DNA of 59,162 bases from Verrucomicrobiota bacterium (GTDB lineage: Bacteria > Verrucomicrobiota > Kiritimatiellia > SS1-B-03-39 > UBA6053). Where the stretch lies: the NCBI GenBank assembly GCA_020831635.1, contig JAFIGC010000017.1, forward strand, positions 1 to 59,162, in the 5' to 3' direction. Shown in pieces: positions 29,318 through 54,431 of the stretch (position 1 is its first letter; each line of letters starts with the position of its first letter). The position numbers were made by a program, and so were the translations under genes. The notes beneath the pieces were generated by a model, which searched no databases, had not been told where the DNA came from, and saw only the letters and a list, made by a program, of their open reading frames with translations.

Positions 29318-30367
29318 ATGGCGAAATCAAACCGGCGAATCACATTGAAAGACATCGCGGCGGCGACGGGGGTGAGCCCGATGACGGTGTCGTACGCTTT
29401 GCGGAATCACCCGGCGGTGAACGCGGAGACGGGGAGGCGGGTGCGGGAGGTGGCGGAATCGATGGGCTATACCCCCGATCCGGCCTTGTCGGCGCTGGTG
29501 GCGTATCGAAGCGGCAAGCGACCCGCCGCGTCACACGGGAATCTGGCCTGGATTACGGACACGCCGGAATCGCGTAGAAAGTTCGCTTATTTCGAGGAGC
29601 CGGTGTTTCGGGCGGCATCGGAACAGGCGGGTCGGCTCGGATACAAGCTGGAAATTTTCCGATTGGGACCGGAGGGATACAAAGCCGCGCGGCTCGGGCG
29701 TCTCTTTCACAACCGGGGCATACAGGGGGCGCTGATCGCTCCGTTGAACCATCCCCGGGTGTTGGAAGGAATGAACTGGGAGAGGATTTCAGCGGTGTCG
29801 ATTGGACGTTCTTTGCGTCACCCGCGATTGGACCATGTGACCGCAGATCATTTCGAGGCGGGGTATCGCATCTGCGCCATCCTCCGCGAACGCGGATATC
29901 GGCGGATCGCCTTTCTTTCGCCCAGCCGTACCGATGACCGGGTGCAGCATCGCTTTTACGCCTCCATTCGCGCGGCGGCCCTGGACGGGGAACGGGGTTG
30001 GGTGCCACCCTTTCTAATCGGGGAAAATGACGCCGAAGTCCTGGCGCGATTTCTCAAAAAACAACGACCGGATGTGGTGGTCTCCGATGATCCGGCCGGA
30101 TTGGATCTCCTCCGGGCCACCGGATGCGACATCCCGGGGGAGCTTGGCTTCGTCGCGACCCGAATCTTTGGAGACGACCGTACGATCAGCGGTATCCGAC
30201 CCGCAATGGCGGAAATCGGAGAGCGCGCGATTTCGTTTTTGCACATGAAAATGCTGGTGGCCGAGCGGGGCGTGCCGGATCGGGTGGCGGGCATTGTCAT
30301 CCAAGGGCATTGGCAGGAGGGAGAAACGCTTGTCACGGATGTTCAGGAAAAGGGGGCAAGGCACTGA
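29318..30367 (+). CDS. LacI-family transcriptional regulator
   Basis: 349 residues. The helix-turn-helix is at about 8-30 (ITLKDIAAATGVSPMTVSYAL) with the hinge helix after it. A periplasmic-binding-like effector domain follows (about 65-340), with GIQGALIAPLN-type and VVSDDPAGLDLL strands. It should repress or activate sugar-related genes. It is divergent from the PEP-CTERM gene and convergent with the epimerase. TTGTA-N4-TACAA upstream may be its own site. Confidence 0.85.
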   Translation: MAKSNRRITLKDIAAATGVSPMTVSYALRNHPAVNAETGRRVREVAESMGYTPDPALSALVAYRSGKRPAASHGNLAWITDTPESRRKFAYFEEPVFRAASEQAGRLGYKLEIFRLGPEGYKAARLGRLFHNRGIQGALIAPLNHPRVLEGMNWERISAVSIGRSLRHPRLDHVTADHFEAGYRICAILRERGYRRIAFLSPSRTDDRVQHRFYASIRAAALDGERGWVPPFLIGENDAEVLARFLKKQRPDVVVSDDPAGLDLLRATGCDIPGELGFVATRIFGDDRTISGIRPAMAEIGERAISFLHMKMLVAERGVPDRVAGIVIQGHWQEGETLVTDVQEKGARH

Positions 30368-34064: not shown

Positions 34065-35048
34065 ATGAAGTCGGGCAGTCCAAGTTTGCGGAAAATCGCG
34101 GAACGCGCGGGGGTGAGCACCATGACGGTGTCCCGCGCCCTGCGAGGACTGCCCAAAGTATCCGATGAACAGCGGGCGCGCATTCTCGAGATTGCCGAAG
34201 AATTGGGGTATCGCCCCGATCCCCGCATCTCTCAGCTTATGGCGCATTTGCGGCAGGGACGGGCCGTGGCCGGCACGTCCACCTTGGCGTGGCTCACCCC
34301 GCATGACGAGGAGCGACAGGGCGCAAGCAGAGGGTACAGGATGGGACTGCTTGAGGGCGCGCGCCGTCGGGCGGAGAAACTTGGCTACACTTTGGATGTG
34401 ATCTCGTTTCACAAAGCGGGGGTGAGTCCGGAACGCTGCCGCCACATTTTGGAAGCGCGCGGGATTCAGGGGGTGATCATTTCTCCGTTGGGCAGCCGGG
34501 ACCGGCGATTGGAGGTGCCCTTGGACAACTTCTCGGTGGCTTCCATTGGGTTTGCCTTGGACGAGCCGCGTTTTCATCGGGTGGGGGAGAATTTTTTCGA
34601 GGACACCCAACTGGCGCTCAACCGGCTTGCCGTTCGGGGCTGTAGTCGGGTGGGGGTGGTGCTGGGCATGGACCCCAAACAGCACATGGTCGAACACGTG
34701 CTGGGCGCCTGGGCGGGTTGGTGTGTCCAAGAGAGACTGACCCTGCCCGAACCGCTCGTGTGCACCCCCCTACGGGAAGTCGATGTCAAAGACTGGTTCA
34801 AAAGCGAAAAACCAGACGGCATTGTGAGCAATGTGGATTTGCGCGACTGGATCCCCAAAAAAGTGAAAGGATTCCGGGTGGGATTTTTTTTTGAAGAGGA
34901 CGAGTTGCCCGGCGTGGTGCCCGACTTGGAAGCGATTGGTTCCGCGGCCGTGGACATGGTGGTTGCCCAGATCTTGCGTACTGAAACCGGGGTTCCCCGG
35001 GAGCGGAAAACCATGCTTCTCAGCGGACTGCTACGGGAGGAGGCATGA
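34065..35048 (+). CDS. LacI-family transcriptional regulator
   Basis: 327 residues. The helix-turn-helix is at about 7-29 (SLRKIAERAGVSTMTVSRAL) and the hinge after it. The effector domain contains GIQGVIISPLG and a VSNVDLRDWIPKK-like sensor region. It probably regulates the flanking beta-helix lipoprotein, exported protein and carboxypeptidase. Its stop overlaps the carboxypeptidase start as ATGA, an unusual tight link between a regulator and a peptidase. Confidence 0.85.
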   Translation: MKSGSPSLRKIAERAGVSTMTVSRALRGLPKVSDEQRARILEIAEELGYRPDPRISQLMAHLRQGRAVAGTSTLAWLTPHDEERQGASRGYRMGLLEGARRRAEKLGYTLDVISFHKAGVSPERCRHILEARGIQGVIISPLGSRDRRLEVPLDNFSVASIGFALDEPRFHRVGENFFEDTQLALNRLAVRGCSRVGVVLGMDPKQHMVEHVLGAWAGWCVQERLTLPEPLVCTPLREVDVKDWFKSEKPDGIVSNVDLRDWIPKKVKGFRVGFFFEEDELPGVVPDLEAIGSAAVDMVVAQILRTETGVPRERKTMLLSGLLREEA

Positions 35049-36154
35049 AAATTTTCGTGGACGAAATCCTGGGCTCAGAAAGCTTGCAGTTGGAGCAGAC
35101 CGGTCCCAATGCCTTTCGCGCCATCCTGGCCCCGTCGCGCGGTCTGCCCTTGGTGCCCAACATGTTGCAATTCCGTTGTCAGGGGTGCGCACACCACGAA
35201 ATTGAAATCGAAACCCTTTTTTCCGTTGAAAACCCCCGCGGGAAATTCGACGAATATCCCCATTGCGCCACCCCGGACTTCGAACGATTTCTGCCGCTGG
35301 AATGGTCGTTGCCCTTGAACGGCGCCCGCAACATTCTCCGCGTTCCCCCCACGGGATGGGACGATTTTCGCGTGGGCATGCAGGCGGTCTACCCGAATGC
35401 GCTTGTGAAACGCCACATGGGCGTGTGGGCCCAACATCCCCACGCCACTCACGAAACTCTCGGCACTTCCACACAAGGCCTCCCCATTCACGCCCTGCGC
35501 GTGCACGATCCCGACGGGATCCCCCGTTGGCGGCATTGGATCGTCAACCAACATCCCGGCGAAGGCAACGCCCGTTGGCGGATCAAGGGCATGGTCGATG
35601 ACGTGTTGTCCGACAACCCGCTTGCGGCTCAGTTGCGGCGCAACGCGGAGATCCTGTTCATTCCCCTGCTTTGTCCCGACGGACCCGCCAACGGGTGGCG
35701 GCGCGTCAATGCCGATGGCGTGGACATGAACCGCTGCTTCCGCATGGAGGGCCCCGATCCTCGCGCCCAGATCCACGAAGCCTTTCTTTTACAGCACCGA
35801 TTGGAAACGGAAAAACCCCACACCCTCTGGAACATGCACACCTGGCCCGGACTCACCGAACCCGTCCTCGACAACGCCGGACCGGAGTTGGGCCATGCAA
35901 CCGGAACCGTGGAAGAATTGATCGCCCTTTTTGCCCGCATCGGCGAATCCCATCTGAAACCCTTGCGGAAACGCGAAAAACCCGGTGCGTCCACCACCTG
36001 GAACGGCGGAGCCGGCCAACGCCTCGGCATGACTTCCTTTCTCATCGAAGGGGGAGGAGAACCCGCCCAACCCCACCCGCATCTCGAAGCCGGAAAACGC
36101 CTCGCCCAAATCCTCGCGATGTTTTGGGGGGCGGGTTTTCCCGCGCATGATTGA
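35045..36154 (+). CDS. M14-family zinc carboxypeptidase, cytosolic CCP-like
   Basis: 369 residues. An N-terminal beta-sandwich domain (about 1-115) precedes an M14 carboxypeptidase domain. Zinc ligands are H170 and E173 in HPGE and H265 in NMHTWPG. The substrate-binding N-A-D-G-V-D-M-N-R is at 222-230, and the catalytic Glu is in LIEGGG near 338. The layout matches M14 enzymes of the cytosolic carboxypeptidase group. No signal peptide is seen, so it should act in the cytoplasm. The substrate is unknown. Confidence 0.75.
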   Translation: MKIFVDEILGSESLQLEQTGPNAFRAILAPSRGLPLVPNMLQFRCQGCAHHEIEIETLFSVENPRGKFDEYPHCATPDFERFLPLEWSLPLNGARNILRVPPTGWDDFRVGMQAVYPNALVKRHMGVWAQHPHATHETLGTSTQGLPIHALRVHDPDGIPRWRHWIVNQHPGEGNARWRIKGMVDDVLSDNPLAAQLRRNAEILFIPLLCPDGPANGWRRVNADGVDMNRCFRMEGPDPRAQIHEAFLLQHRLETEKPHTLWNMHTWPGLTEPVLDNAGPELGHATGTVEELIALFARIGESHLKPLRKREKPGASTTWNGGAGQRLGMTSFLIEGGGEPAQPHPHLEAGKRLAQILAMFWGAGFPAHD

Positions 36155-36356: not shown

Positions 36357-37952
36357 ATGAACGAACCTACACTTGAAACCATCGAATCCATCTCAACCGG
36401 AACCCCCGACGAAGTCGTCCTGGACTTTGACAAAATCCCCGCATGGCTGAAAGACTACTTTCACCACGCCTCGAAGCTGTCCAAAGGTGACTGGATCGAC
36501 CATCCCATGCACGGCACCACCGTGTATCTGGCCGAAACCGAGGTGCCCACCCGCTACGGACTCTACCGCGCCTGCATTTTCCAGGACATCATTCACAAAG
36601 GATATGTCATAGCCCTCACTTTCGGTGACGTGCGCAACGCCGAAGTCCTCCACACCCGCATGCATTCCAGCTGCGTGACCAGCGAGACCCTCGGCGGCTG
36701 TGACTGCGATTGCGTGCAGCAACTCGAAGGGGCCATGGCCAAAATCGCGGAAAAAGGCAAGGGCGTCCTGTTTTACCTCCTGCAAGAGGGACGCGGCGTG
36801 GGCTATTCCGCCAAAGCCAGGGACCGGATGCTCGTACAGGCCAGCGGCGATACCATCTCCACCTTCGAGGCGTACCGACTGCTGGGATTGAAAAAAGATT
36901 ACCGTCAGTATTTGAATATCGCCGATATCGTCCACATCCTCGGCATCGACGCGGAATGGGTGGTGCTGACCAACAATCCGGACAAGGTCGCGGCCATGAA
37001 TCGCAATGGCATGAAGGTCAAGCGCATGGAGTCCCTCGAATTCGAACCCGGCCCCTTCAATTTGTTCTACCTCAAGTCCAAACAGGATTCCGGGCACAAA
37101 CTCACCCAACCCAACGAAAGCCCCATGGATCGGGTGGAATGGCCGGAGCCGGTCACCCCCTTCAAACCCCGCCGTCTCGAAAAAGCCCAGCGCTTCATCT
37201 ACATGGCCAGCTACATGTTGCCCATTCGACCCATTGACGATGAAATCGTCATGCCCTACGATACCGTGGTGAACCTGCTGGGAGAAACCGGCCTCTCCGA
37301 ATTCACCGTCGGCATGAACCCGCCCATCCTCCGGTACGAATCCCTGCGGGGGAACCGGCTCAAACTGAAGGTCAACTCGCAGGAAATCAAACAACGGCTC
37401 AAAACAAACCCGTCCGATCCCCTGGGTCGTTTGCTGCTGGAACCCTACTGGTTTAGGGTGCACGTGTATTTCGACATCGTCAGCGGCGATGACTTCGTGG
37501 TCTTGACCCATGGCACCCCCAAAAGCTATGAACGGCCAATCGTGCGCATCCAAAGCGAATCCATCCTCGACCGGTTCCCCGTGAACGATGACGACAACCA
37601 AGTGAAATACCAAAAAGCCATTCAGCATATCGTCCGATACGGTTCCGGCGCCGTGGTCCTCGTCTATCAAGACGGCCGCGGGGCCGGTTTCGGCGCCTAT
37701 GCGGTGGACCGGATGATGATGGAGCAGGGCCATTCCCTGGATACCCGGCAGTCCTACGAAAGGTTGGGCATCCCCTTCGATCAGCGCGACTACGGATGCC
37801 TGTTCGAGGTCCTCAAGAGCCACCTCCCCAGCACCAACATTCAAATGGTCATGAACTCCCCCAACAGCCTCGTCACCAAAAATGAATACGCCCTCGCCCT
37901 CCATCAAAGCGGACTGAACGTGGAAAACTGGATTTTCCTGGAATCGGAATAA
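36357..37952 (+). CDS. Tandem GTP cyclohydrolase II-like protein (one intact-looking, one degenerate domain)
   Basis: 531 residues. Domain 1 (about 45-235) has the RibA zinc cysteines C106, C117 and C119, the motif LLQEGRGVGY at 141-150, D165 in place of the RibA catalytic Asp, and LTNNPDK. Domain 2 (about 390-531) repeats the fold (YQDGRGAGFG, D-T-R-Q-S-Y-E-R-L-G, D-Q-R-D-Y) but has lost every zinc cysteine. RibA opens the GTP imidazole ring for riboflavin; this fused pair may do so or act on another heterocycle. It is translationally linked (TAATG) to an SIS protein. No other rib genes are nearby. Confidence 0.75.
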   Translation: MNEPTLETIESISTGTPDEVVLDFDKIPAWLKDYFHHASKLSKGDWIDHPMHGTTVYLAETEVPTRYGLYRACIFQDIIHKGYVIALTFGDVRNAEVLHTRMHSSCVTSETLGGCDCDCVQQLEGAMAKIAEKGKGVLFYLLQEGRGVGYSAKARDRMLVQASGDTISTFEAYRLLGLKKDYRQYLNIADIVHILGIDAEWVVLTNNPDKVAAMNRNGMKVKRMESLEFEPGPFNLFYLKSKQDSGHKLTQPNESPMDRVEWPEPVTPFKPRRLEKAQRFIYMASYMLPIRPIDDEIVMPYDTVVNLLGETGLSEFTVGMNPPILRYESLRGNRLKLKVNSQEIKQRLKTNPSDPLGRLLLEPYWFRVHVYFDIVSGDDFVVLTHGTPKSYERPIVRIQSESILDRFPVNDDDNQVKYQKAIQHIVRYGSGAVVLVYQDGRGAGFGAYAVDRMMMEQGHSLDTRQSYERLGIPFDQRDYGCLFEVLKSHLPSTNIQMVMNSPNSLVTKNEYALALHQSGLNVENWIFLESE

Positions 37953-39004
37953 TGCCGGCGGCCAAAGGTTTCTCGCGGATGCGGTCGCGCATGGACGCCA
38001 TTCCCGGCCTGATGCGGGACATGTGGGCTGCGCCCATGCCGTCCCTGCCGGAGGCCCTCCACCAACACGGCGTGGTCGCCACCGGGGTGGGCAGTTCCGA
38101 AGCCGCGGCCCGTTACTTCGTCTTTTTGCTCCAACAAGCCGGCCTCAAAGCCGCGTTCTGGCCACAGTCCGTTTTTTATGGCGCTCTTCCCGCCTTCACC
38201 GGTCCGCCGCCCTGTCTGGCCGTGTTTTCGCAGGGACTCTCCCCCAACGCGGAAATGGTCCTCGCCCGTCGGAATTCGTTTGCCGACACCCTGCTGTTCA
38301 CCGCATCCACCGCCGACGGACAGCGACAAGCCGGACGCGAAAACCGGGCCCGTCTGTTGGAACGCTTGAGCAACGAGGGCGCAACCCTGTATGTACACCC
38401 CATGGAAAACGAATATGAAATTCTGCCCCGCTTTGTGGGGCCCCTGTGTTCCATGTTTGCCGTGGCCCTTGTGGTGACCGGACTGGCTCCCGAAGTTTTC
38501 CCCTCTCCCCGCCAAATCCCGGAAACCCTGGACTCCGTCTCCCTGCCCGACGAAAACCCGGAAGCGTGGACGCGGGAATTGCAGGCGGGCCCGAACTTTT
38601 TTTTCACCAATCCCACATCCCAGTACGCGCAAAACCTCTCCTGCAAAGTGCTCGAAACCCTGTTTCAACGTCCGCCCCAACTCCTGGACGCCCTCACCTA
38701 CGCCCACGGACCCTTCCAACTCGACTGCCTGAGGCCGGGCGCAAACTGGATGTTCCTCACCGACGACCCCCACGAACAAAAACTCACCCAAACCCTCGCG
38801 CCCCTCTTCGAACGCGGCGGCGCGTTTCGGCAAATTTCCTCCCCGCTTCCCGTCCCCTTCGCCATTTTTTATTACGAAGCCTTCCTCAACAAACTCCTTT
38901 TGCACAGCCTCGAAACCTTGGACGTGGATCTGGTGGACTGGCCCGGCAAAGGCCTCGACGGAGAAGGCTACGGTATTCGGGAACCCGACTTCAGGAGTGT
39001 CTGA
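37952..39004 (+). CDS. SIS-domain (sugar isomerase fold) protein
   Basis: 350 residues. Two SIS-like halves are visible: G-V-G-S-S-E-A-A-A-R-Y near 45-55 with LAVFSQGLSPNAE near 88-100, and a second half near 225-340 with NPTSQYAQNLSCKVLE and an E-A-F-L-N-K-L-L type C-terminal helix. This is the layout of glutamine-fructose-6-phosphate transaminase isomerase domains and sugar deaminases. The glutaminase domain is absent. The start overlaps the cyclohydrolase-like stop, so the two are surely co-translated and probably act in one pathway on a phosphosugar-linked compound (inference). Confidence 0.7.
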   Translation: MPAAKGFSRMRSRMDAIPGLMRDMWAAPMPSLPEALHQHGVVATGVGSSEAAARYFVFLLQQAGLKAAFWPQSVFYGALPAFTGPPPCLAVFSQGLSPNAEMVLARRNSFADTLLFTASTADGQRQAGRENRARLLERLSNEGATLYVHPMENEYEILPRFVGPLCSMFAVALVVTGLAPEVFPSPRQIPETLDSVSLPDENPEAWTRELQAGPNFFFTNPTSQYAQNLSCKVLETLFQRPPQLLDALTYAHGPFQLDCLRPGANWMFLTDDPHEQKLTQTLAPLFERGGAFRQISSPLPVPFAIFYYEAFLNKLLLHSLETLDVDLVDWPGKGLDGEGYGIREPDFRSV

Positions 39005-39193
39005 TTGAGTCATTTCTTGGAGAACCGCTTATCATCGCGTATCGAATGCGAATAAAACCTGAATCCCGAAAATAATTGCAAAGGAGGCGTGCAGGATCAT
39101 GGAGGGAAAAATCACCTTGCCCGAACGTGGTTTCGGCGCTACTTTTCAAACTCACCTCCTTGCAAACCCTTTCACATGGTAACGCCCCACCAC

Positions 39194-40210
39194 ATGATTT
39201 CATCCCAATCACAAACCGAACCCCTCCAATTCATCGACCTGTTTTGTGGAATCGGTGGCTTCAGATTCGCCCTGGAGCAGGCGGCCCAAGAGAGGGGACA
39301 GCCCGTGGAATGCGTGTTTTCCAGCGACATCGATCCACATTGCCGCGATTCCTACCACGCGAATTTCCTGGAAATGCCGCACGGTGACATCACCGTAGTT
39401 CACGAAAATGACGTCCCAGACCACGACTTGCTTTTGGCCGGATTCCCCTGCCAGCCCTTCAGCATTATCGGACAAATGAAAGGATTCGAGGATACCCGGG
39501 GGACGCTGTTCTTCGACATCGCCCGCATTCTCAAGGAAAAACGCCCCAAGGCATTTGTCCTCGAAAACGTCAAACTTCTCGTTGGGCACAACAAAGGACA
39601 AACCATCCGGGTCATTCACAAAACCCTAGTGGACATGGGTTATCATGTGGAATACAAAGTGCTGAATGCCCTGAACTTCGGCTTGCCCCAAAAACGGGAA
39701 CGGGTTTGGATCGTGGGCTTCCGCGATCACGACAAACTGGAATGGCCGATCGGAGGTCAGGCCATGAAACCCTTGGGGTCCATTTTGGAAAAAGACGTAG
39801 ACGCCAAACACTACGCCTCCGAACACATCCGGTCCAAACGCCTTTTGAAGGCCCGTCCCAGAGCCGAACCCACCATCTGGCATGAGAACAAAGCGGGAAA
39901 CATCAGCGTTTACCCCTATTCCTGTGCACTGCGGGCCGGTGCCTCCTACAACTACCTGCTCGTCAATGGCGAGAGACGACTCACCCCCAGGGAAATGCTC
40001 CGTCTGCAAGGATTTCCCGACTGTTTCCGCATCGTTTGCTCAGACAGTCAAACGCGAAAACAAGCCGGAAACAGCCTGCCCGTAAATGTGGCCCGCGCGG
40101 TGCTCAGTCAAGTTTTGATTCGCCTGAAGCAACCGCCCGAATTGGATCACGAAAAAGTACTTGCCACCATGAATTTCGATGCGTCGTGGATTGAAGTGGT
40201 GAAGGTGTAA
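39194..40210 (+). CDS. DNA (cytosine-5) methyltransferase
   Basis: 338 residues. The m5C motifs occur in order: I (FIDLFCGIGGFRFAL, 13-27), IV with the catalytic Cys86 (GFPCQPFS), VI (ENVK), VIII (QKRERVWIVG), and X (QAGNSLPVNVARAV). The target-recognition region between VIII and X is short. It methylates cytosine in a short DNA site. No restriction endonuclease or very-short-patch repair gene is recognisable beside it, so it looks solitary. ATG 39194 is used; ATG 39176 in the same frame is possible. Lower-GC DNA follows, hinting at acquisition. Confidence 0.85.
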   Translation: MISSQSQTEPLQFIDLFCGIGGFRFALEQAAQERGQPVECVFSSDIDPHCRDSYHANFLEMPHGDITVVHENDVPDHDLLLAGFPCQPFSIIGQMKGFEDTRGTLFFDIARILKEKRPKAFVLENVKLLVGHNKGQTIRVIHKTLVDMGYHVEYKVLNALNFGLPQKRERVWIVGFRDHDKLEWPIGGQAMKPLGSILEKDVDAKHYASEHIRSKRLLKARPRAEPTIWHENKAGNISVYPYSCALRAGASYNYLLVNGERRLTPREMLRLQGFPDCFRIVCSDSQTRKQAGNSLPVNVARAVLSQVLIRLKQPPELDHEKVLATMNFDASWIEVVKV

Positions 40211-40214
40211 ACGT

Positions 40215-40264
40215 TTTTCCGACGCTCGGAAGCCCTTGAAAAATTTCTTCCGAGCGTCGGAAAA
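40215..40264. terminator. 18-bp perfect inverted repeat after the methyltransferase gene
   Basis: TTTTCCGACGCTCGGAAG and its exact reverse complement are separated by 14 bases, starting 4 bases after the methyltransferase stop. It can form a strong hairpin with A/T-rich ends in both directions. A bidirectional terminator is most likely; a mobile-element end is an alternative. Confidence 0.65.
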
Positions 40265-40466
40265 CCAAACTTTTCTGAAAATTAGGAAAGTACGTCTGGA
40301 GGCGGTGCGTTCATGGAGATATGCGAATGGTGAATATCTTTACGAAAGTAAGGATACACGATTTGCGACAAAGTTCTCAACCATGAAATTTGCAAAAATT
40401 CTTGACATTCTACCTTAGGACTTTCATGGTATATGAAAATTGCTCAATAAATTGTTCTAAATTCCA

Positions 40467-40838
40467 ATGAAAACACTCTATATCCTCTCCATATTAATAG
40501 GCCTTGTGATTGTCGCCATGTGGAATTTGGTTATCGTGGTCCCGCCTAAAGGTTCTGTGGAAGCAATCACTTTGGCTCGGGAACCGAGCAAATGGAAAAT
40601 CGAGATTCTTGAGGACTCGATGAATTTCAAAGATGAAAACGAAATTAAAACCGGCTTAATTTCATTTATTGAGGCCCATCGAGGAAGCCAGTATTTCAAT
40701 GTCCCTTACATGACAGCTTTGGGTGCTGTAATGATTGTCTATGGAGGTCTAGGACTTTATCAAACGATTCGATTGAAACATTATCTTAATCAGAACCATG
40801 AGGCCAAACGAACCTCCTCCGTCGGTCCGGTTGCCTAG
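40467..40838 (+). CDS. Hypothetical two-helix membrane protein
   Basis: 123 residues. The first hydrophobic helix is at about 4-27 and a second at about 78-98; the ~50 residues between them are charged and probably outside the membrane. The C-terminus is basic and polar. Codon use and GC are lower than in neighbours. No family is recognised. It is followed 19 bases later by another small membrane ORF, so the two may form a pair. Confidence 0.5.
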   Translation: MKTLYILSILIGLVIVAMWNLVIVVPPKGSVEAITLAREPSKWKIEILEDSMNFKDENEIKTGLISFIEAHRGSQYFNVPYMTALGAVMIVYGGLGLYQTIRLKHYLNQNHEAKRTSSVGPVA

Positions 40839-40857
40839 ATGTTAGCATATAGGATTA

Positions 40858-41175
40858 ATGACAAAACTGACTAAATGGTTTTCAATTCTTCCCTTGGGAA
40901 TGGCCACAGTGTCTGCGCTTTACTGTTTCGAGATTCTGATGTCATTACATGGACGCTCAGCTGTGCCGATGACAACGAGTACTAACATTGTCTTCATCGC
41001 GTGGACGACTTCTGCCTTATTGGGTGGAACAATTTTCTCGTACAAAGTGGGGGCACGAGTTGGGAAGATTTTGGCCATCGTTGCGATTCTGCTCGCAGCC
41101 GGATCTTTGGCTATATGGTTTTCACTACTTTATCTGCAAATGCTCCTTCCGTATAATGAGGTTCATCAGATATAG
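40858..41175 (+). CDS. Hypothetical three-helix membrane protein
   Basis: 105 residues. Three hydrophobic helices lie at about 8-29, 44-62 and 70-95, with short polar links. AGGATTA precedes the ATG. No family is recognised. It shares the low GC of the preceding ORF and probably its transcription. Confidence 0.5.
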   Translation: MTKLTKWFSILPLGMATVSALYCFEILMSLHGRSAVPMTTSTNIVFIAWTTSALLGGTIFSYKVGARVGKILAIVAILLAAGSLAIWFSLLYLQMLLPYNEVHQI

Positions 41176-41199
41176 TCCTGAATCCGTGAGAACTTTGCT

Positions 41200-41526
41200 G
41201 TGAATCCGCACAATCACATGGGCTGCAAGGAATTGCCGGAAATGCTCGACAGACTGCATGGGTATGCCTCGATTCCCGACAATCCCTTTCGCTCCATGAT
41301 CTTGTACGCCTTCTTTGCAAATATCCCACGGATTCAGGTGTTTCTATACGGGCTGGTATTGGTTCTCTTTTGGATGGTTCACACGGGTGAGAGCATGAGT
41401 GGGCTCAAAGAATACAAGTGTAGCCGGATAGAGGAAATGAAGGCAACGATTCCTTGTGGTGCTGATCATGCCCGATCCGCTCAAGGCATTTTTGCACTCG
41501 CTTCAACACCCTTTAATTTCTCTTGA
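41200..41526 (+). CDS. Possible small ORF with one membrane helix (doubtful)
   Basis: 108 residues from a GTG at 41200. One hydrophobic segment lies near residues 46-62 (VFLYGLVLVLFWMV); the rest is polar with several Cys and no motif. There is no good ribosome site, and its end runs into the promoter of the toxin-antitoxin pair. It may be a decayed gene rather than a functional one. Confidence 0.3.
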   Translation: MNPHNHMGCKELPEMLDRLHGYASIPDNPFRSMILYAFFANIPRIQVFLYGLVLVLFWMVHTGESMSGLKEYKCSRIEEMKATIPCGADHARSAQGIFALASTPFNFS

Positions 41527-41550
41527 CTTCCGTATCCTTTCGGATACAGT
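41523..41550 (+). promoter_or_regulatory. Promoter with embedded operator for the HigBA-like pair
   Basis: TTGACT (41523-41528), a 16-base spacer and TACAGT (41545-41550). The inverted repeat GTATCC-TTTC-GGATAC (41532-41547) fills the spacer, ideal for repression by the antitoxin. The ATG at 41557 is so close that the transcript may be leaderless. Confidence 0.55.
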
Positions 41551-41556
41551 TTGGTG

Positions 41557-41850
41557 ATGGAAATCCGCAAAACCGACACCTTTGCCCGCTGGTTGGATCG
41601 ATTGAAAGATCCAAAAGCCAGGGCCAAGGTACTGGTTCGGATTTCCCGGCTTGCGATCGGCAATCCGGGAGATGTGAAGCCGGTGGGAAAAGGCGTTTCG
41701 GAAATGCGGATTCCGTATGGACCCGGTTACCGTGTCTACTTCGTTCAACAGGGGAATCATTTGATCATCCTGTTGGCCGGAGGCAGCAAGAGAACCCAAT
41801 CCAAAGACATTCAAAACGCCATCAACCTGATGGAAAATCTGGAAAAATGA
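41557..41850 (+). CDS. Toxin of a HigB-type addiction module (RelE superfamily killer protein)
   Basis: 97 residues. It opens with the pattern of addiction-module killer proteins (I-R-K-T-D-T-F-A-R-W-L-D-R-L-K-D, then A-R-A-K-V-L-V-R-I-S-R-L). The core is GNPGDVKPVGKGVSEMRIPYGPGYRVYF-like, and the end has L-L-A-G-G-S-K-R-T-Q-S-K-D-I. Family members cleave mRNA on the ribosome. The toxin comes first, as in higBA. The antitoxin start overlaps its stop (ATGA). Confidence 0.8.
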   Translation: MEIRKTDTFARWLDRLKDPKARAKVLVRISRLAIGNPGDVKPVGKGVSEMRIPYGPGYRVYFVQQGNHLIILLAGGSKRTQSKDIQNAINLMENLEK

Positions 41851-42152
41851 CCATGCCCAAAGCGAAAATCACCCGTTTCGACATTTCGGAACACCTGCGG
41901 ACCCCCGTGGAAATGGCCGCCTATTTGGAAGCCAGCATCGAAGAGTCGGATGGAGATGCCGCCTTCATCGCCAAAGCCTTGGGTGACATCGCCCGGGCCA
42001 AAGGCATGACCCAAGTCGCCCGCGAAGCAGGGCTCTCGCGTGAAAGCCTTTACAAAGCCCTTTCCGGTGAAAGAACCCCGGGATTTGATACCATTCTCAA
42101 GGTCATGAAGGCCCTGGATCTGAAAATCCACGCCGAGGCCGTAGGTTTATGA
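41847..42152 (+). CDS. HigA-type addiction-module antidote with Xre-like helix-turn-helix
   Basis: 101 residues. It opens with F-D-I-S-E-H-L-R-T-P-V-E-M-A-A-Y-L (about 10-26), then A-F-I-A-K-A-L-G-D-I-A-R-A-K-G-M near 38-53. The helix-turn-helix is TQVAREAGLSRESLYKALSG (about 54-73). This is the pattern of the putative addiction-module antidote family that accompanies HigB-like killers. It should neutralise the toxin and bind the GTATCC/GGATAC palindrome at the promoter. Confidence 0.82.
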   Translation: MTMPKAKITRFDISEHLRTPVEMAAYLEASIEESDGDAAFIAKALGDIARAKGMTQVAREAGLSRESLYKALSGERTPGFDTILKVMKALDLKIHAEAVGL

Positions 42153-42215
42153 AATTGGCGTGTCCAAAACCCCTCGGCAGTAAAAGGCTTTGAAAAAATT
42201 CAAGCGGATCGAAAG

Positions 42216-42243
42216 TTGACACCCGGTCCATCCGTACTAATCC
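42216..42243 (+). promoter_or_regulatory. Sigma-70-like promoter, shared 27-mer copy 2
   Basis: TTGACA (42216-42221), a 16-base spacer and TAATCC (42238-42243), 42 bases before the FAH-family start. It differs from the copy before the cyclohydrolase-like gene at only two of 27 bases. Confidence 0.6.
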
Positions 42244-42284
42244 ATTTATTTCACGTTTCCAACATCTAACCCGAGACCTGCCCC

Positions 42285-43103
42285 ATGCGCATTGCCCGTG
42301 TCACCCTTGCATCCAACCAAATCACCTACGTTCAGCAACGCGGCGAAGAATGGGTCCGCTGCGAAGGCTCCCTGACCGAAGGATGGACGGCCACCGATGA
42401 AATCGTCACCCCCGCCCGCTTTTTGCCACCGCTGAATCCCAGGGTCGTCTACGCCATCGGCGTCAATTACCGCGAACATGCCATCGAAATGAGAGCCGAC
42501 ATTCCCGATCATCCGGTGGTAACCATGAAAAACCCGGCATCCGTGATTGGACACGAGGACGTGGTCCTGCTCCCCCGCTTTTTGCCCAGCGATTCCGTCG
42601 ACTACGAGGTCGAGCTGGCCATTGTCATCGGCAAAGCCTGCAAAAACATCAGCAAGGAGGACGCATTGAATTACGTGGCCGGCTTCACCATCGCCAATGA
42701 TGTCAGTGCCCGCGACTGGCAGAAAATCCATAGCGGCGGACAATGGGTACGGGGAAAAAGTTTCGACACCTTTTGTCCCCTGGGTCCGGTTTTGGTCACC
42801 CCCGACGAACTGGTCAATCCCGACAACCTGGAGGTGTCCTTTGAACTCAACGGCGAAGTTATGCAATCCTCCAACACCTCGGACATGATTTTCAGCGTCG
42901 CGGAACTCATCACCTTCCTCAGCGGCAGCGCCACCCTCCTGCCGGGAACCGTGATTCTGACCGGGACCCCGCCCGGCGTCGGCGCCGCCCGCACCCCGCC
43001 CCGGTATTTGCAGCCCGGAGACCGCATGGTCACCACCATCGCCGGCATCGGCTCCCTCGTCAACACCGTGCAGGAGGAAACCCTATCCACGACCGATACT
43101 TGA
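42285..43103 (+). CDS. Fumarylacetoacetate hydrolase (FAH) family protein
   Basis: 272 residues. FAH landmarks are A-I-G-V-N-Y-R-E-H near 62-70, a substrate loop with M-K-N-P-A-S near 82-87, the metal Glu in D-Y-E-V-E-L-A-I near 105-112, A-N-D-V-S-A-R-D near 138-145, G-K-S-F-D near 156-160, and TGTPPGVG near 225-232. The superfamily hydrolyses, decarboxylates or isomerises C-C bonds of 2-oxo or acylpyruvate compounds; the exact reaction is not readable. It probably shares promoter control with the cyclohydrolase-like/SIS pair. Confidence 0.82.
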   Translation: MRIARVTLASNQITYVQQRGEEWVRCEGSLTEGWTATDEIVTPARFLPPLNPRVVYAIGVNYREHAIEMRADIPDHPVVTMKNPASVIGHEDVVLLPRFLPSDSVDYEVELAIVIGKACKNISKEDALNYVAGFTIANDVSARDWQKIHSGGQWVRGKSFDTFCPLGPVLVTPDELVNPDNLEVSFELNGEVMQSSNTSDMIFSVAELITFLSGSATLLPGTVILTGTPPGVGAARTPPRYLQPGDRMVTTIAGIGSLVNTVQEETLSTTDT

Positions 43104-43802: not shown

Positions 43803-45041
43803 ATGAATATCAGTGTTCATCAGTGTCCAGCAGTGGTTGAAACCCCAAATGGCTTTTCGGCTGGCCTCATCCTGGAGCGCATCCGCGGTTTGCCCGATGC
43901 GCAACGACAGTCCGTGATCGCTTCCCTTCGCTCCCCGGAAGAGATCCACGCGGAAGAAGCCTGCTTTCATCATAAGCAGCTTCCCCTCGCGGGCACCCCC
44001 TGTTTCGTGAAAGACACTTTCGACATCGCCGGCCTGCCCACCCGCGCCTCCTCCCGTTTTTTGGAGCGCGTCCGCCCCGGACCCCACCCCGACAGCGCCC
44101 TCGCGAAAAAATTGCGCGCCCTCGGCGTGAGCATCCTCGGCAAAACCCAGATGAACGAATTCGCCTACGGACTCGACGGCGCCAACCCGCATTATGGGGA
44201 TTGTCCGCATCCCTTTCTGCCCGGACATTGTTCCGGCGGATCCAGCAGCGGCAGCGCCTGGGTGGTGGCCAAAGGACTGGTCCCCCTCGCGTTTGGCACC
44301 GACACCGGGGGTTCCATCCGCGTGCCCGCCGCCTTTTGCGGCATCGTCGGCCTCCGCATCCCCCCCAACGACTGGTCCACCGACGGCTGCTTCCCCTTGT
44401 CACCCACCTTCGACACCGTCGGCTGGTTCACCCGCACCCTGCCCGAAATGACCCGCTACACCCGGCACCTGCTCGACCTGCCCCAAGTCCCCCCGCAGGG
44501 CACCGAACTCCGCATCCTCAACGCCGTCCCCGACCATCCCGTCCTCACCCCCTTCGTAAACCGACAATTCCCCCAAGCAAAAACCTGCACGGATTTTAAC
44601 GACTCCGACCAAACCGAAGCACGGCTAAAAGCCTTCAGCGTCCTGCAAAGCCGGGAAGCCATGGAAGTACACAAAAACTGGATCGACCAATACGCCGAAG
44701 AATACGATCCCAAAGTCCGCGCCCTCATTCTCCGGGCCCGCACTTGGACGGACGAAGAAATAGAACAGGCCGAGGCCGTGGAGAAAAACCTGCAAAACCA
44801 AATCCAAGACCTCTTCCGCGACGCCGACATTTTGCTACTGCCCGTCAGCCCCTTCCCGGCGCCACCGTCGCCCATGACCCAAACCCAACGCGCCGGTCTC
44901 CTCACCCACACCGCCCTCGGCAGCCTCTGCCGCCTCCCCATTCTCACCCTCCCCGTACCGGGCCCGGACGGATCCTACGGCATCCAATGCCTCCTCCCCC
45001 CCGACCGATGGCGGGAAGTGTTGTCGCGGCTGATCGCGTAG
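43803..45041 (+). CDS. Amidase signature (AS) family enzyme
   Basis: 412 residues. The Ser-cisSer-Lys machinery is present: K70 in FVKDTFD, the cis-Ser in GGSSSGS at 145-151, and nucleophile S171 in GTDTGGSIRVPA. It is shorter than GatA (about 480). The family hydrolyses amides, including allophanate and other urea derivatives. The first ~11 residues (NISVHQC) are encoded by a dispersed CAGTGTTCATCAGTG repeat, so the true start may be the in-frame GTG at 43833. The stop TAG falls in the next repeat family. It may join the FAH protein in a degradative pathway (inference). Confidence 0.8.
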   Translation: MNISVHQCPAVVETPNGFSAGLILERIRGLPDAQRQSVIASLRSPEEIHAEEACFHHKQLPLAGTPCFVKDTFDIAGLPTRASSRFLERVRPGPHPDSALAKKLRALGVSILGKTQMNEFAYGLDGANPHYGDCPHPFLPGHCSGGSSSGSAWVVAKGLVPLAFGTDTGGSIRVPAAFCGIVGLRIPPNDWSTDGCFPLSPTFDTVGWFTRTLPEMTRYTRHLLDLPQVPPQGTELRILNAVPDHPVLTPFVNRQFPQAKTCTDFNDSDQTEARLKAFSVLQSREAMEVHKNWIDQYAEEYDPKVRALILRARTWTDEEIEQAEAVEKNLQNQIQDLFRDADILLLPVSPFPAPPSPMTQTQRAGLLTHTALGSLCRLPILTLPVPGPDGSYGIQCLLPPDRWREVLSRLIA

Positions 45042-48890: not shown

Positions 48891-50699
48891 CTATGGGGAT
48901 GGGTTTGAAAGAGGAAGAGTGTCAGGGGATTCGTCCGGATCTACGTCCATCCATGGCTGTTCATGTGCGTCCATATGTTTCCGAAGCTTTTGAAACGGCA
49001 TGTAGGGGATGCCACTCCAGGTCAACCCCATGTGCGAGGAAAATTCGAGGGTGTTCAGGCGCACGCCGTGCACCATGATCCCCAGAGCCGCGAGCACGCA
49101 GTTGAGGGCGTGACCAAACAGCAGGATGATGATCATCAGTCCGGTAATCACAAAATTGCGCCCGGCGGAGCCCCCGAGGGTGAGGTCGTTAAAACTTGAA
49201 GCCATGGCCAGGGTCGCCATCCCCACGGCGTAAAGGCGGACGTAACTGATCACGTCCACGAAATTGTTGACCAGGCTCATGGGCAGCATGGCGTATTGCA
49301 TGATCTCCTCCTTGAATTTGGAGAAAGGCGTCATGAACACTATAATCAAAAGTACGCTCACGACCGCCATTACCGGCATCCATGCCGGGGAGGGGTGGCC
49401 AAGCACCATGCTGGCGGTGACAAAATACATGGTCCAAGTGGTGCCGATCCACCCCAGTTGGGCCAAGGCCTGTAGTGTCTTCCGCTGATTCCAGAGCGTC
49501 CACCCATGGGCGATGGAGAGGTGCACGGCACCAAGGGTAAAGCAAATGTTCATGAGCGTGTTCGCGTCGGACAGCGCGTGGATGCGGAAAGGAACCACCA
49601 CCCCAAAGTAGTTTCCACTCAAAGCGCCCCACAGCACCGTTGCCACGCCCATGAGCATCAACAACTTGGAAAATGGACCCCGGGTGTGCGGTTTGCGGAT
49701 GTTCGTGATCGCGACTCCCGCCAATAGCAGGAATCCATAACCTGCGTCGCCAATGATCATTGCCGAGAACACGGTGAGAAAAACCAGAAAGCTCCAGCCT
49801 ACATCCACCTCACGATAGCCGGGGACCACCCCGAGGAAGTTGAAGACCGGTTGAATCCAGGAAACCATGGGCCTGTGTTTCAGCAAAGTGGGCGGGGCGT
49901 CGGTTTCGCCGGGTTCGCGGCTCAGAAGGGCGGCGCCGGCGGTGTCGGCAACTTGTTTCACGGCATCGAGGGTGTCGTCGGGCACGTATCCGGTGATCCA
50001 GGAAATTTCGCCTTCCCGGCTCATGCCGAGGTGGGCGCGGGTGTAGTCGAGGGCGTCGGCCTGGGCGTCGCGGTGAGCTTTGAGCGCGTCCAGGGAAACG
50101 GTGTGGCGGGCAATGGCTTCCTGATGACGGCGGGTGAGGTCGGCGAGTCTGGCCCGGCGCTGGCGAATCAGTCCGGGAGAGCGCACCGGCATGGTGAGCG
50201 GTACGGCCTCGATTTGCGGGGGGGCGTTCAAAGCGATGCCCAGACCAAAGCCCTCCCGGGCCGGAATCCAGGTGATGTCTTTGCCGAATTCCGGGGTGCC
50301 GCCGGGGGCGCGGTAAAAGCGGACATGCACGCCCTGATCCCCGAGGGCGCGGAGTGTGTCCCCTTGCAAATCACCAAACGGCTCCCAAGTTTTTTCCTCG
50401 CGGGCCAGTTTGGCGTCCACCGCCTGGATGTCCTTGAGTTCCTGTTCGCGGCAAAGCAGAACTTCGACAATCTCCTCGGGGTCCATGTCGGATGGATCGC
50501 CGTCCACTGCCGGCAGGGCCTCCAATTTTTGAATCACTTTTTGGGTTTGTTCGAGGGACTGTTCGAGGCGTTCCAGGTTCCGGTTGCTCTTGCGGGTGAT
50601 GTCTAAATGCACGACCCCGGCGGCTCGCAAATGATCGAGCAGCGCGTCCGCGTCTTCTCCGCGGCACAGCAGGGTGACATGGCTCATGGGGGTGATCAT
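48891..50699 (-). CDS. V-type ATPase subunit I (a-type stator subunit)
   Basis: 602 residues. The first ~290 are cytoplasmic, with coiled-coil segments. The C-terminal half carries about seven membrane helices, starting near REVDVGWSFLVFLTVFSAM and including FVDVISYVRLYAVGMA, the region with the essential channel Arg. It makes the ion half-channels against the K ring. The start overlaps the D-subunit stop (ATGA). Confidence 0.88.
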   Translation of the reverse strand: MITPMSHVTLLCRGEDADALLDHLRAAGVVHLDITRKSNRNLERLEQSLEQTQKVIQKLEALPAVDGDPSDMDPEEIVEVLLCREQELKDIQAVDAKLAREEKTWEPFGDLQGDTLRALGDQGVHVRFYRAPGGTPEFGKDITWIPAREGFGLGIALNAPPQIEAVPLTMPVRSPGLIRQRRARLADLTRRHQEAIARHTVSLDALKAHRDAQADALDYTRAHLGMSREGEISWITGYVPDDTLDAVKQVADTAGAALLSREPGETDAPPTLLKHRPMVSWIQPVFNFLGVVPGYREVDVGWSFLVFLTVFSAMIIGDAGYGFLLLAGVAITNIRKPHTRGPFSKLLMLMGVATVLWGALSGNYFGVVVPFRIHALSDANTLMNICFTLGAVHLSIAHGWTLWNQRKTLQALAQLGWIGTTWTMYFVTASMVLGHPSPAWMPVMAVVSVLLIIVFMTPFSKFKEEIMQYAMLPMSLVNNFVDVISYVRLYAVGMATLAMASSFNDLTLGGSAGRNFVITGLMIIILLFGHALNCVLAALGIMVHGVRLNTLEFSSHMGLTWSGIPYMPFQKLRKHMDAHEQPWMDVDPDESPDTLPLSNPSP

Positions 50700-51307
50700 G
50701 CCACTTCCTCCGCCGCTTCCGCTTCTTCACCTTTGCGTTTGGCGAGCTTGGATCGGGCCACGCCCGCGACCTGTTCGTCGCCGAGGGCGATGCGGATCAC
50801 GCGGATGTTTTCTTTGCATTCGGGAATTTTGACTTTCTCAAACAAATTGACACGCTGACTGGTAGTGCGCAACTCATCGTTGAGCATATCCTCCTGCCGT
50901 TCCAGGACGAGGAGATTGAGCTTGAATTCGATTTCCTTGCGCAGGGCCGCGAGACCGTCGTCAATCCACACGGCTTCTTCCAGGCGGTTGGGGACGGTTT
51001 CCTCCAACTCAAAGCTGTTGATCACGGGCACGTCCACGCCGGCGATGTGTTGCTGTCCGACATCGAGCCGTTTGACCCGAAGCCAATCGCTCATGGGCGG
51101 AGCTTCGGCGAAAAGCGCCACCCAGGACTGCAACTCGCGGCGGGCTTTGTCGTGTTCGGCGGCCAAATCCGCCCGCTCGTGCTCCACGCGACGCACCTCG
51201 GCCTGCAACTGCTGTTTTTTCAGTTGCAGGGTCGGCAAAAACCGCTGATACCGGCGCAAGTGCTCGCGCTGGACTTTCAGTTCGGATTTGGTGCGTTTGA
51301 GGGGCAT
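50696..51307 (-). CDS. V-type ATPase subunit D (central rotor shaft)
   Basis: 203 residues from ATG 51307. It is highly charged with two long coiled-coil helices, as in subunit D: LKRTKSELKVQREHLRRYQRF-like opening (about 3-22), then a C-terminal helix with N-L-F-E-K-V-K-I-P near 160-168. It couples the A3B3 head to the K ring. The frame runs upstream to 51454, but those residues are translation of a GATC-type palindromic repeat and part of atpB, so the internal ATG was chosen. Confidence 0.85.
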   Translation of the reverse strand: MPLKRTKSELKVQREHLRRYQRFLPTLQLKKQQLQAEVRRVEHERADLAAEHDKARRELQSWVALFAEAPPMSDWLRVKRLDVGQQHIAGVDVPVINSFELEETVPNRLEEAVWIDDGLAALRKEIEFKLNLLVLERQEDMLNDELRTTSQRVNLFEKVKIPECKENIRVIRIALGDEQVAGVARSKLAKRKGEEAEAAEEVA

Positions 51308-51328
51308 GGTGTGTTTTTGATGCTGTCG

Positions 51329-51348
51329 GATCAGACGGATCCGTCTGA

Positions 51349-51350
<2 letters not shown>
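51329..51350. repeat. 22-bp perfect palindrome at the end of the B-subunit gene
   Basis: GATCAGACGG followed by ATCCGTCTGATC is its own reverse complement. It overlaps the B-subunit stop codon and belongs with the palindrome at 15858-15883. The adjoining GTCGGATCGG encodes the last residues (S-D-R-S-D) of subunit B. Confidence 0.8.
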
Positions 51351-52665
<1,315 letters not shown>

Positions 52666-52667
52666 GA

Positions 52668-54431
52668 TCAGTTGCCCTCCCCTTCGGCGCGATGCGCGTC
52701 CACCGCGTCCAAAAGTTTCTTTTCCTGGGTTTCAAATTCTTCCGCCTCCAAGGGGATGCGGTTCCAGTCCTTGGCGATCTGCTGCCAGTGAATGAAGGCG
52801 CGGCGGGCGGCGTCCCGGCTCTGGAAATGAAGCCGGGTGGTGAGAATGCGGTGAATGACGCCGAAAACGCGTTTTTGGCGGTCGGCGGAACTGGAGCCGT
52901 CCACATCGTGGAAAGCATCCTGTTGCAAATACACCTCGTCGAGAAAGTCGGCTTTGAGGTAGAGCACGAAATCGTCCAAGGCCGTGCCTTCCTCGCCCAC
53001 CACTTTCATCATTTGCTCCACGTCCCGTCCGTCCCGAAGAATTTTGCGCGATTCGTCCACCTGCTGGATATCGACCAAACTGGGGTATTTGCTCCAGCTT
53101 TCCAGGGGGTCGATGGCCGGATAACGGCGCTGGTCGGAGCGTTCGCGGCTGAGACCGTGGAACGCGCCCACCACCTTGAGGGTACTCTGGGTGACGGGTT
53201 CCTCGAAGTTGCCGCCGGCGGGGGACACGGAACCGCCGATGGTCACCGAGCCGATGGACCCGTCGTTGAGCCGCACCACGCCGCCGCGTTCGTAAAAGGA
53301 AGCGATCACGGATTCGAGGTAGGCGGGAAACGCTTCTTCGCCGGGGATTTCCTCCAGGCGTCCGGACAATTCGCGCAGGGCCTGGGCCCAGCGGGAGGTG
53401 GAGTCGGCGAGCAGGAGCACGTGCAGGCCCATCTGGCGGTAATATTCGGCCATGGTCACGGCGGTGTACACCGAGGCCTCGCGGGAGGCCACGGGCATGG
53501 AGCTGGTGTTGCAGATGATCAGGGTGCGCTCCATCAGGGAACGTCCGGTGCGGGGGTCGTCGAGTTCCGGGAATTCGCGCAGGGTTTCCACCACTTCCCC
53601 GGCCCGCTCGCCGCAGGCGGCGATGATCACCACGTCCACGTCGGCGCGGCGGCTGGTGATCTGCTGCAACACGGTTTTGCCCGCCCCGAACGGTCCGGGA
53701 ATGCAGTAGGTGCCGCCGCGGGCCACCGGGAAAAAGGTGTCCAGAATCCGCACCTGGGTGGTCATGTTTTCTGTGGGACGCAAACGCTCCTGGTAGGCCT
53801 GAATGGCTTTTTTCACCGGCCAAGTCTGATACAGTTTGATCTCGCGGAGATCCCCGTCCGCGTTCGCCACCTTGGCGATCACCGTGTCCACGGTGCAAGT
53901 GAGGGCTTCGGAAATTTCTTTGACCGTGAACGCGCCGCGCCAACCGAAGGGGACCATAATGCGATGGGTGAACAGGCCTTCCGGCACCGTGCCCACGGAA
54001 TCCCCGGCATGAACGGTGTCGCCCACTTTCACCGACGGGGTGAAGTCCCATTTCTTTTCACGGTCGAGACCGTCGATATACTCGCCCCGTTCCAGAAAAT
54101 AACCGCATTTTTCGGCGAGCTGCGGCAGGGGATTTTGCAGACCGTCGTACACCGAAGTCAGCAGACCCGGCCCCAATTCCACGGAGAGCAGTTCGCGCGA
54201 AAATTCGACTTCGCCGCCCACCTTGAGTCCGGCGGTGTCTTCAAAGACCTGCAACCAGCACTGTTTGCCGCGGATGCGGACGATTTCGGCCTTGAGCATT
54301 TTGCCGGCGAGGCGGGCGTAGCCGACTTCGTTGAGCATCACGGGCTGGTTGAAAATGACCCGGATCAGGTTGCCGTTCACACCATCGATCACGCCGGTGG
54401 AAACTGTGGAGACTGGAGAGGATTCGGTCAT
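52668..54431 (-). CDS. V-type ATPase subunit A (catalytic)
   Basis: 587 residues. The Walker A motif GPFGAGKT is at 246-253. The preceding non-homologous insert typical of A subunits is present (about 110-200). The catalytic Glu and Walker B region are around ACGERAGEV and [16 protein letters not shown]. It hydrolyses or makes ATP in the A3B3 head on the cytoplasmic face. Its start overlaps the DUF2764 stop (ATGA). Confidence 0.92.

Follow-up and report, generated by a model that had tools for sequence, protein, structure and literature searches.

A tandem GTP cyclohydrolase II homologue, its SIS-fold partner and their possible part in purine nucleotide catabolism in Verrucomicrobiota

We analysed a 59,162-nucleotide stretch of DNA from a Verrucomicrobiota bacterium (hereafter the window; JAFIGC010000017.1 of assembly GCA_020831635.1, contig C306 of the draft genome), which encodes a protein with two GTP cyclohydrolase II (GCHII)-like domains and, directly downstream, a partner of the SIS type (Table 1). 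From its ATG to its stop codon, the first gene is a single open reading frame for 531 residues with both GCHII domains in one frame. The Pfam model PF00925 matched the protein twice (whole-protein E 6.5e-55), and in a genome search with this model the two stretches scored 131.7 and 59.3 bits, each above the cut-off. The ATG of the SIS gene begins on the final base of the TAA stop codon (..GAATAATGCC..). Both the tandem architecture and this overlap had been described in the original prediction, made from the letters of the window, and both were borne out. Orthologues with 94, 91 and 75% identity were found in three related genomes and further homologues in four families, so the gene is not a chance reading frame. 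A structure model of the tandem protein was of low quality (pLDDT 61, pTM 0.49) and too poor for domain geometry, including the question of a cap formed by domain 2 over domain 1; a fold search with it still ranked E. coli GCHII at the top.

Active-site residues were mapped in E. coli GCHII numbering from alignments to 2bz0. Domain 1 has in common with RibA and RibBA the PF00925 fold, the zinc cysteine triad, the EGR motif and the residues Asp126, Arg128, Thr149 and Lys154; in the window protein it keeps the zinc ligands Cys106, Cys117 and Cys119 together with Glu144, Arg146, Asp181, Arg183, Thr205 and Lys210. Every domain 1 homologue that covers these positions conserves Arg49, Cys54, Cys65, Cys67, Glu92, Arg94, Asp126, Arg128, Thr149 and Lys154. 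By contrast with RibA and RibBA, the tandem protein consists of two fused domains, the second zinc-less, and Arg157 of domain 1 stands at the column of E. coli Tyr105, which is arginine in all 21 domain 1 copies and tyrosine in all 36 RibBA proteins compared. Full GCHII activity reportedly depends on Tyr105, and a Streptomyces paralogue in which this residue is replaced is said to give a formyl-retaining product. Given this role, a formyl-retaining enzyme would fit the change seen in 21 out of 21 copies. Judged by its residues, domain 1 is thus itself altered, a point absent from the original prediction.

The equivalents of Cys54, Cys65 and Cys67 were present in 21/21 domain 1 and 0/23 domain 2 homologues, in agreement with the earlier statement that only the first domain holds zinc cysteine residues. 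In the window, domain 2 has Ser402, Asp412 and Asn414 at these columns; among its homologues, Cys54 is replaced by serine (once by alanine), Cys65 mostly by aspartate or valine and Cys67 by asparagine. Domain 2 also shows Glu92 changed to aspartate, Thr149 to methionine and Lys154 to serine, and its Tyr105 column contains arginine (17 of 23), leucine (five) or cysteine (one). Arg49, Arg94, Asp126 and Arg128 are, however, kept in 23/23 homologues, and Arg397, Asp439, Arg441, Asp475 and Arg477 of the window domain are invariant across the same set. When the window was compared with its closest relative, the ratio of non-synonymous to synonymous substitution rates (dN/dS) was 0.035 in domain 1 and 0.021 in domain 2. 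Domain 2 is under strong purifying selection and is not decaying, and near the window it evolves as slowly as domain 1. Because these four mapped residues are invariant and the dN/dS is as low as that of domain 1, the sequence data indicate that domain 2 is functional, even if it is no zinc cyclohydrolase, and the description of it as a dead second half goes too far. In a tree, the two tandem domains grouped together against RibBA (support 97/92) on long branches. Since Arg105 is common to both domains and the tree unites them, the simplest reading is an internal duplication after the tyrosine-to-arginine change.

No Pfam family matched the SIS protein of the window, and PF01380 (SIS) gave a weak match in two of the ten members of its family. 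In a Foldseek search with the AlphaFold2 model of the partner (pLDDT 81.3, pTM 0.85), the best PDB match was 8eym, a phosphosugar isomerase of the NagB-II type (E 4.6e-11); isomerase domains of GlmS aligned with a TM of about 0.68. On the strength of these model matches the partner is assigned as a double-SIS protein of the GlmS/NagB-II type, which agrees with the identity first proposed for it. Substrates of NagB-II and GlmS are amino-sugar phosphates. Although the fold is common to these enzymes and the partner, identity is 11–20% and the window protein has no Pfam SIS match, and their substrate therefore cannot be transferred to it.

The tandem protein was present in 16 of the 388 sampled genomes of the phylum, spread over four families, and in five close genomes besides. 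A scan of a genome collection with two short peptide patterns returned Verrucomicrobiota/PVC records exclusively and added carriers in Cerasicoccus maritimus, Coraliomargarita and Puniceicoccaceae; the taxonomic range is a lower bound, because the reach of the search beyond the phylum was poor. No plasmid record encoded the tandem protein over 80% of its length. The closest relatives of the window genome were assembled from metagenomes and bear the labels Kiritimatiellae, PVC group or Verrucomicrobia. In one genome (G376), a second tandem copy was found split over several frames (L086 9102-10125).

The GCHII and SIS genes adjoin in most loci with sufficient flank, and in each of four families there are loci where the pair occurs together with the other enzymes. 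The order GCHII, SIS, FAA hydrolase (FAH), amidase was found in Kiritimatiellae (G003 and G001), in G487 and in Cerasicoccus; in C. maritimus the last two are fused into a 697-residue protein (L091 11815-13908). In Opitutales the pair recurs amid a conserved gene set comprising the FAA hydrolase, an AtzE-like amidase, a creatininase-family hydrolase with a degenerate paralogue, a formamidase, RidA, an amidohydrolase, DUF3891, a purine phosphoribosyltransferase and an AzgA-like purine permease. Five loci are richly clustered (L053, L072, L082, L083 and L091), and these hold most of RidA (PF14588), DUF3891, formamidase (PF03069), amidohydrolase and phosphoribosyltransferase; they also mostly carry the creatininase with its metal motif, the degenerate creatininase paralogue, an SBF-like transporter and a PF00860 permease. 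In the window genome most of the other cluster genes sit on contig C1 (locus L109). The comparison of gene neighbourhoods suggested in the original prediction thus showed that the pair recurs; the unit itself looks like a pathway of about 11 genes and not a two-gene system.

Table 1. Features of the window and of contig C1 (locus L109) of the same genome
Feature	Location	Strand	Basis or remark
Tandem GCHII-like protein, 531 aa	window 36357..37952	+	PF00925 twice; orthologues in relatives
Domain 1, residues 58-245	window 36528..37091	+	mapped active-site residues
Domain 2, residues 362-531, zinc-less GCHII fold	window 37440..37949	+	residue mapping, dN/dS
Double-SIS protein, GlmS-isomerase/NagB-II fold (modelled), 350 aa	window 37952..39004	+	AlphaFold2 model, Foldseek
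Segment without counterpart in relatives	window 39005..42284		in relatives FAH is directly 3' of SIS
Cytosine DNA methylase (PF00145)	window 39089-40210		inside inserted-looking segment between SIS and FAH
HI1420-type antitoxin	window 41523-42152		inside inserted-looking segment between SIS and FAH
FAA-hydrolase family protein (FAH), 272 aa	window 42285..43103	+	PF01557 E 3e-77
Amidase (AtzE-like), 412 aa	window 43803..45041	+	PF01425 E 3.9e-56; follows FAH in relatives
Phosphoribosyltransferase	C1 2719-3291
Amidohydrolase	C1 3411-4646
Degenerate creatininase	C1 4639-5280
Creatininase	C1 5265-6044		PF02633 E 2.6e-57, with IEQHGPHLPVGTD motif
SBF-like transporter	C1 from 6041
RidA	C1 6981-7475
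DUF3891	C1 7472-8299
Formamidase	C1 8310-9278

In the loci of relatives L053, L056, L072 and L091, FAH comes straight after SIS. The window preserves the order of the four genes, interrupted after SIS by a 3.3-kb methylase/antitoxin segment, and no methylase or antitoxin match was found in the relatives' loci. The region 39089-42152 therefore looks, from this comparison of sequences, like an insertion into the GCHII-SIS/FAH-amidase operon; neither a nuclease nor a toxin was recognised within it. In G009 the FAA hydrolase right after SIS is reduced to its last ~91 residues (L054 1979-2251). The creatininase-family protein without the E..H..D metal motif lies beside the intact one on contig C1 and likewise in another locus (L083 11933-12544), a second intact/degenerate pair in the same proposed pathway as the tandem GCHII. 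Upstream of the tandem gene lie a LacI-family regulator (34065-35048) and, overlapping it, an M14 peptidase-like gene (35045-36154), neither of which had a match in the relatives' loci. Another LacI-family regulator is encoded at 29318-30367, and V/A-type ATP synthase subunits (one subunit I-like and two alpha/beta-type) lie on the minus strand at 48891-54431.

The association of the tandem protein with these genes was also seen at the level of genomes. An independent search with the Pfam model found DUF3891 in 16 of the 388 genomes, and 14 of these 16 also encode the tandem protein (Fisher p 9e-22, with no correction for shared ancestry). The contig C1 phosphoribosyltransferase was present in 5/5 Kiritimatiellae carriers and 0/5 non-carriers of the same family. 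A creatininase query matched in 19/19 carriers, an association that is weaker because several of the matches lie away from the clusters. Some plasmids from haloarchaea, Azospirillum and Peribacillus also carry DUF3891 (L123, L124, L125 and L126), with no other cluster gene beside it there; its neighbours in Halomarina are IclR, isochorismatase and amidohydrolase genes. In the library of papers searched, none dealt with DUF3891 or with a pathway of this kind.

Several genes of the cluster hint at the substrate. The best NCBIfam matches of the phosphoribosyltransferase were xanthine and hypoxanthine phosphoribosyltransferases, and in most Opitutaceae-type loci an immediate neighbour of the GCHII gene is a PF00860 permease, which by eye appears AzgA-like. 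Of the 20 genomes searched for xanthine dehydrogenase (PF02738), 14 gave no match, among them all five Kiritimatiellae carriers. The creatininase-family proteins ArfB and BrbF deformylate the ring-opened GCHII intermediate (PMC9478397). The company that a GCHII without Tyr105 keeps here, namely a creatininase-family protein, a formamidase and RidA, therefore suggests that the imidazole ring of a purine nucleotide is opened and that deformylation and enamine hydrolysis follow as steps of their own. We consider the chances about evenly balanced that the GCHII–SIS pair forms the centre of a catabolic route which opens the imidazole ring of a purine nucleotide first. The broader part of the original prediction, a GCHII homologue outside riboflavin synthesis whose domains are asymmetric and whose gene is linked to that of an SIS-fold partner, is supported by these results, as is its view that the pair probably processes a nucleotide-like compound.

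Considering the domain composition, residues, partner fold, gene clustering and co-occurrence, we infer a purine substrate, an order of steps and roles for each domain and for the SIS protein as follows. The purine phosphoribosyltransferase of the cluster would turn a purine base into its 5'-monophosphate. The zinc-bearing domain 1, with its tyrosine-to-arginine change, would then hydrolyse the C8–N9 bond and halt at the 5-formamido-pyrimidine nucleotide, with the zinc-less domain 2 serving as a nucleotide-binding allosteric or structural partner or carrying out a second, zinc-free step. The creatininase-family hydrolase (of the family of ArfB and BrbF) would strip the formyl group, and/or the formyl group would depart as formamide, a substrate for the FmdA-type formamidase. 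The SIS protein may isomerise or cleave the N-ribosyl 5-phosphate linkage to release a pentose phosphate. Finally, RidA, the amidohydrolase, the FAA hydrolase and the amidase would degrade the remaining aminopyrimidine to ammonia and small acids; RidA would fit enamine hydrolysis after deformylation, and what is left of the carbon and nitrogen skeleton would fall to the FAA hydrolase and amidase.

Several observations weigh against imidazole-first purine catabolism. The phosphoribosyltransferase scored 55 bits against a curated cut-off of 138 and also weakly matched the UPRTase model (E 2e-9). The window genome had no PF00860 permease, its cluster transporter being SBF-like, and its two cluster halves lie on separate contigs. 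The creatininase-family protein was matched best by the model of mycofactocin MftE, and members of this family have many different functions. Two genomes (G400 and G595) have the tandem protein without DUF3891, and one (G585) has DUF3891, FAH, RidA, amidase, amidohydrolase and formamidase with no tandem GCHII over the threshold.

Among other explanations, the cluster might serve the catabolism of another purine-derived or purine-like bicyclic compound, such as a pterin, a flavin breakdown product, an 8-oxo- or methylated purine or a deazapurine. The many amidohydrolase-type steps would suit any fused N-heterocycle, and the cluster amidohydrolase resembles deaminases of modified purines and triazines; the dedicated phosphoribosyltransferase and the AzgA-type permease, however, point to common bases, and we regard this explanation as unlikely, though worth keeping in mind. 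Less probable still is a URC-like pyrimidine route, in which the tandem protein would open uridine nucleotides in the manner of UTP cyclohydrolase (URC1), the known catabolic GCHII relative. The UTP cyclohydrolase structures 7eev/7ej3 did appear in the fold search, at weak E-values (9e-5 to 3e-4), and the UPRTase match of the phosphoribosyltransferase would agree with such a route. Domain 1, however, is far nearer to RibA (2bz0, E 4.7e-34) than to 7ej3 (E 1.7e-3), the neighbouring permease is AzgA-like with a purine-type sequence, and the URC4 family DUF1688 matched in 0/19 carriers, though no positive control genome matched either. Membership of URC1 by sequence was rejected, the tandem protein scoring 22.4 bits against a cut-off of 403 with NF005536/PRK07198, which we take to be the URC1 model. 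By analogy, URC is nevertheless the closest known logic to the proposed pathway, since there too a catabolic GCHII homologue would open the ring of a nucleotide after conversion of the base, although the tandem protein is distant in sequence and has other partner genes.

GCHII homologues start several secondary-metabolite pathways, and a biosynthetic cluster for a GTP-derived metabolite, with GCHII used as in toxoflavin-type pathways, would fit the patchy distribution. The loci, however, conserve no set of synthases, ligases or methyltransferases, and the conserved genes are nearly all C–N or C–C hydrolases and transporters, which makes this explanation very improbable. That the tandem protein is a redundant or moonlighting RibA for flavin synthesis, as its nearest solved structures (RibA and RibBA) might suggest, hardly merits belief and was rejected, since contig C223 of the window genome carries RibBA and, after it, RibH and NusB, Tyr105 is altered in all homologues and the tandem gene is linked to hydrolase genes, outside riboflavin operons. 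Because this complete RibBA–RibH operon lies elsewhere in the genome, riboflavin synthesis is independent of the tandem protein, which is therefore not the sole RibA of the genome, the case that had been set against the original prediction; the earlier remark that no other riboflavin genes are present holds for the window and fails for the genome. The tandem protein scored 150.5 bits with the ribA equivalog model TIGR00505, below its cut-off of 205.85, although it passed the looser subfamily model PRK00393.1 (182.7 versus 148 bits).

We return to the proposed opening of the imidazole ring of a purine nucleotide and its relation to known systems. GCHIII is not known to be related in sequence to GCHII. 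The systems of archaeal GTP cyclohydrolase III with ArfB and of bacterial BrbF (PMC9478397) likewise open the ring and deformylate with separate enzymes, the second being of the creatininase family; they are biosynthetic, for flavins, whereas the genes described here are clustered with those of degradation. The known routes of purine breakdown (oxidative/uricase, xanthinase and reductive yanthine) probably have the same substrate class and end products; the pathways described to date are stated to open the pyrimidine ring first (PMC12507026), whereas a GCHII homologue predicts imidazole-first cleavage on the nucleotide, and most carriers gave no xanthine dehydrogenase match. Because the published pathways are said to attack the pyrimidine moiety first, the proposed route would be a distinct strategy. 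We therefore put forward, somewhat more tentatively than the catabolic role itself, a fourth strategy of purine degradation, at the level of the nucleotide and independent of oxygen and molybdenum, whose core could be imagined as imidazole opening by a duplicated, tyrosine-to-arginine GCHII homologue; a dedicated SIS enzyme would recover the pentose phosphate, and DUF3891 would take an unassigned step. By analogy, it would be the purine counterpart of the URC pathway. The proposal is directly testable, because the carriers include the named strains Cerasicoccus maritimus NBRC 105382 and Coraliomargarita sp. SDUM461004. If it is true, a cluster built around a repurposed riboflavin-pathway enzyme would parallel URC on the purine side, DUF3891 would gain a testable role, and the tandem protein would show a route of GCHII evolution by duplication and change at the catalytic tyrosine.
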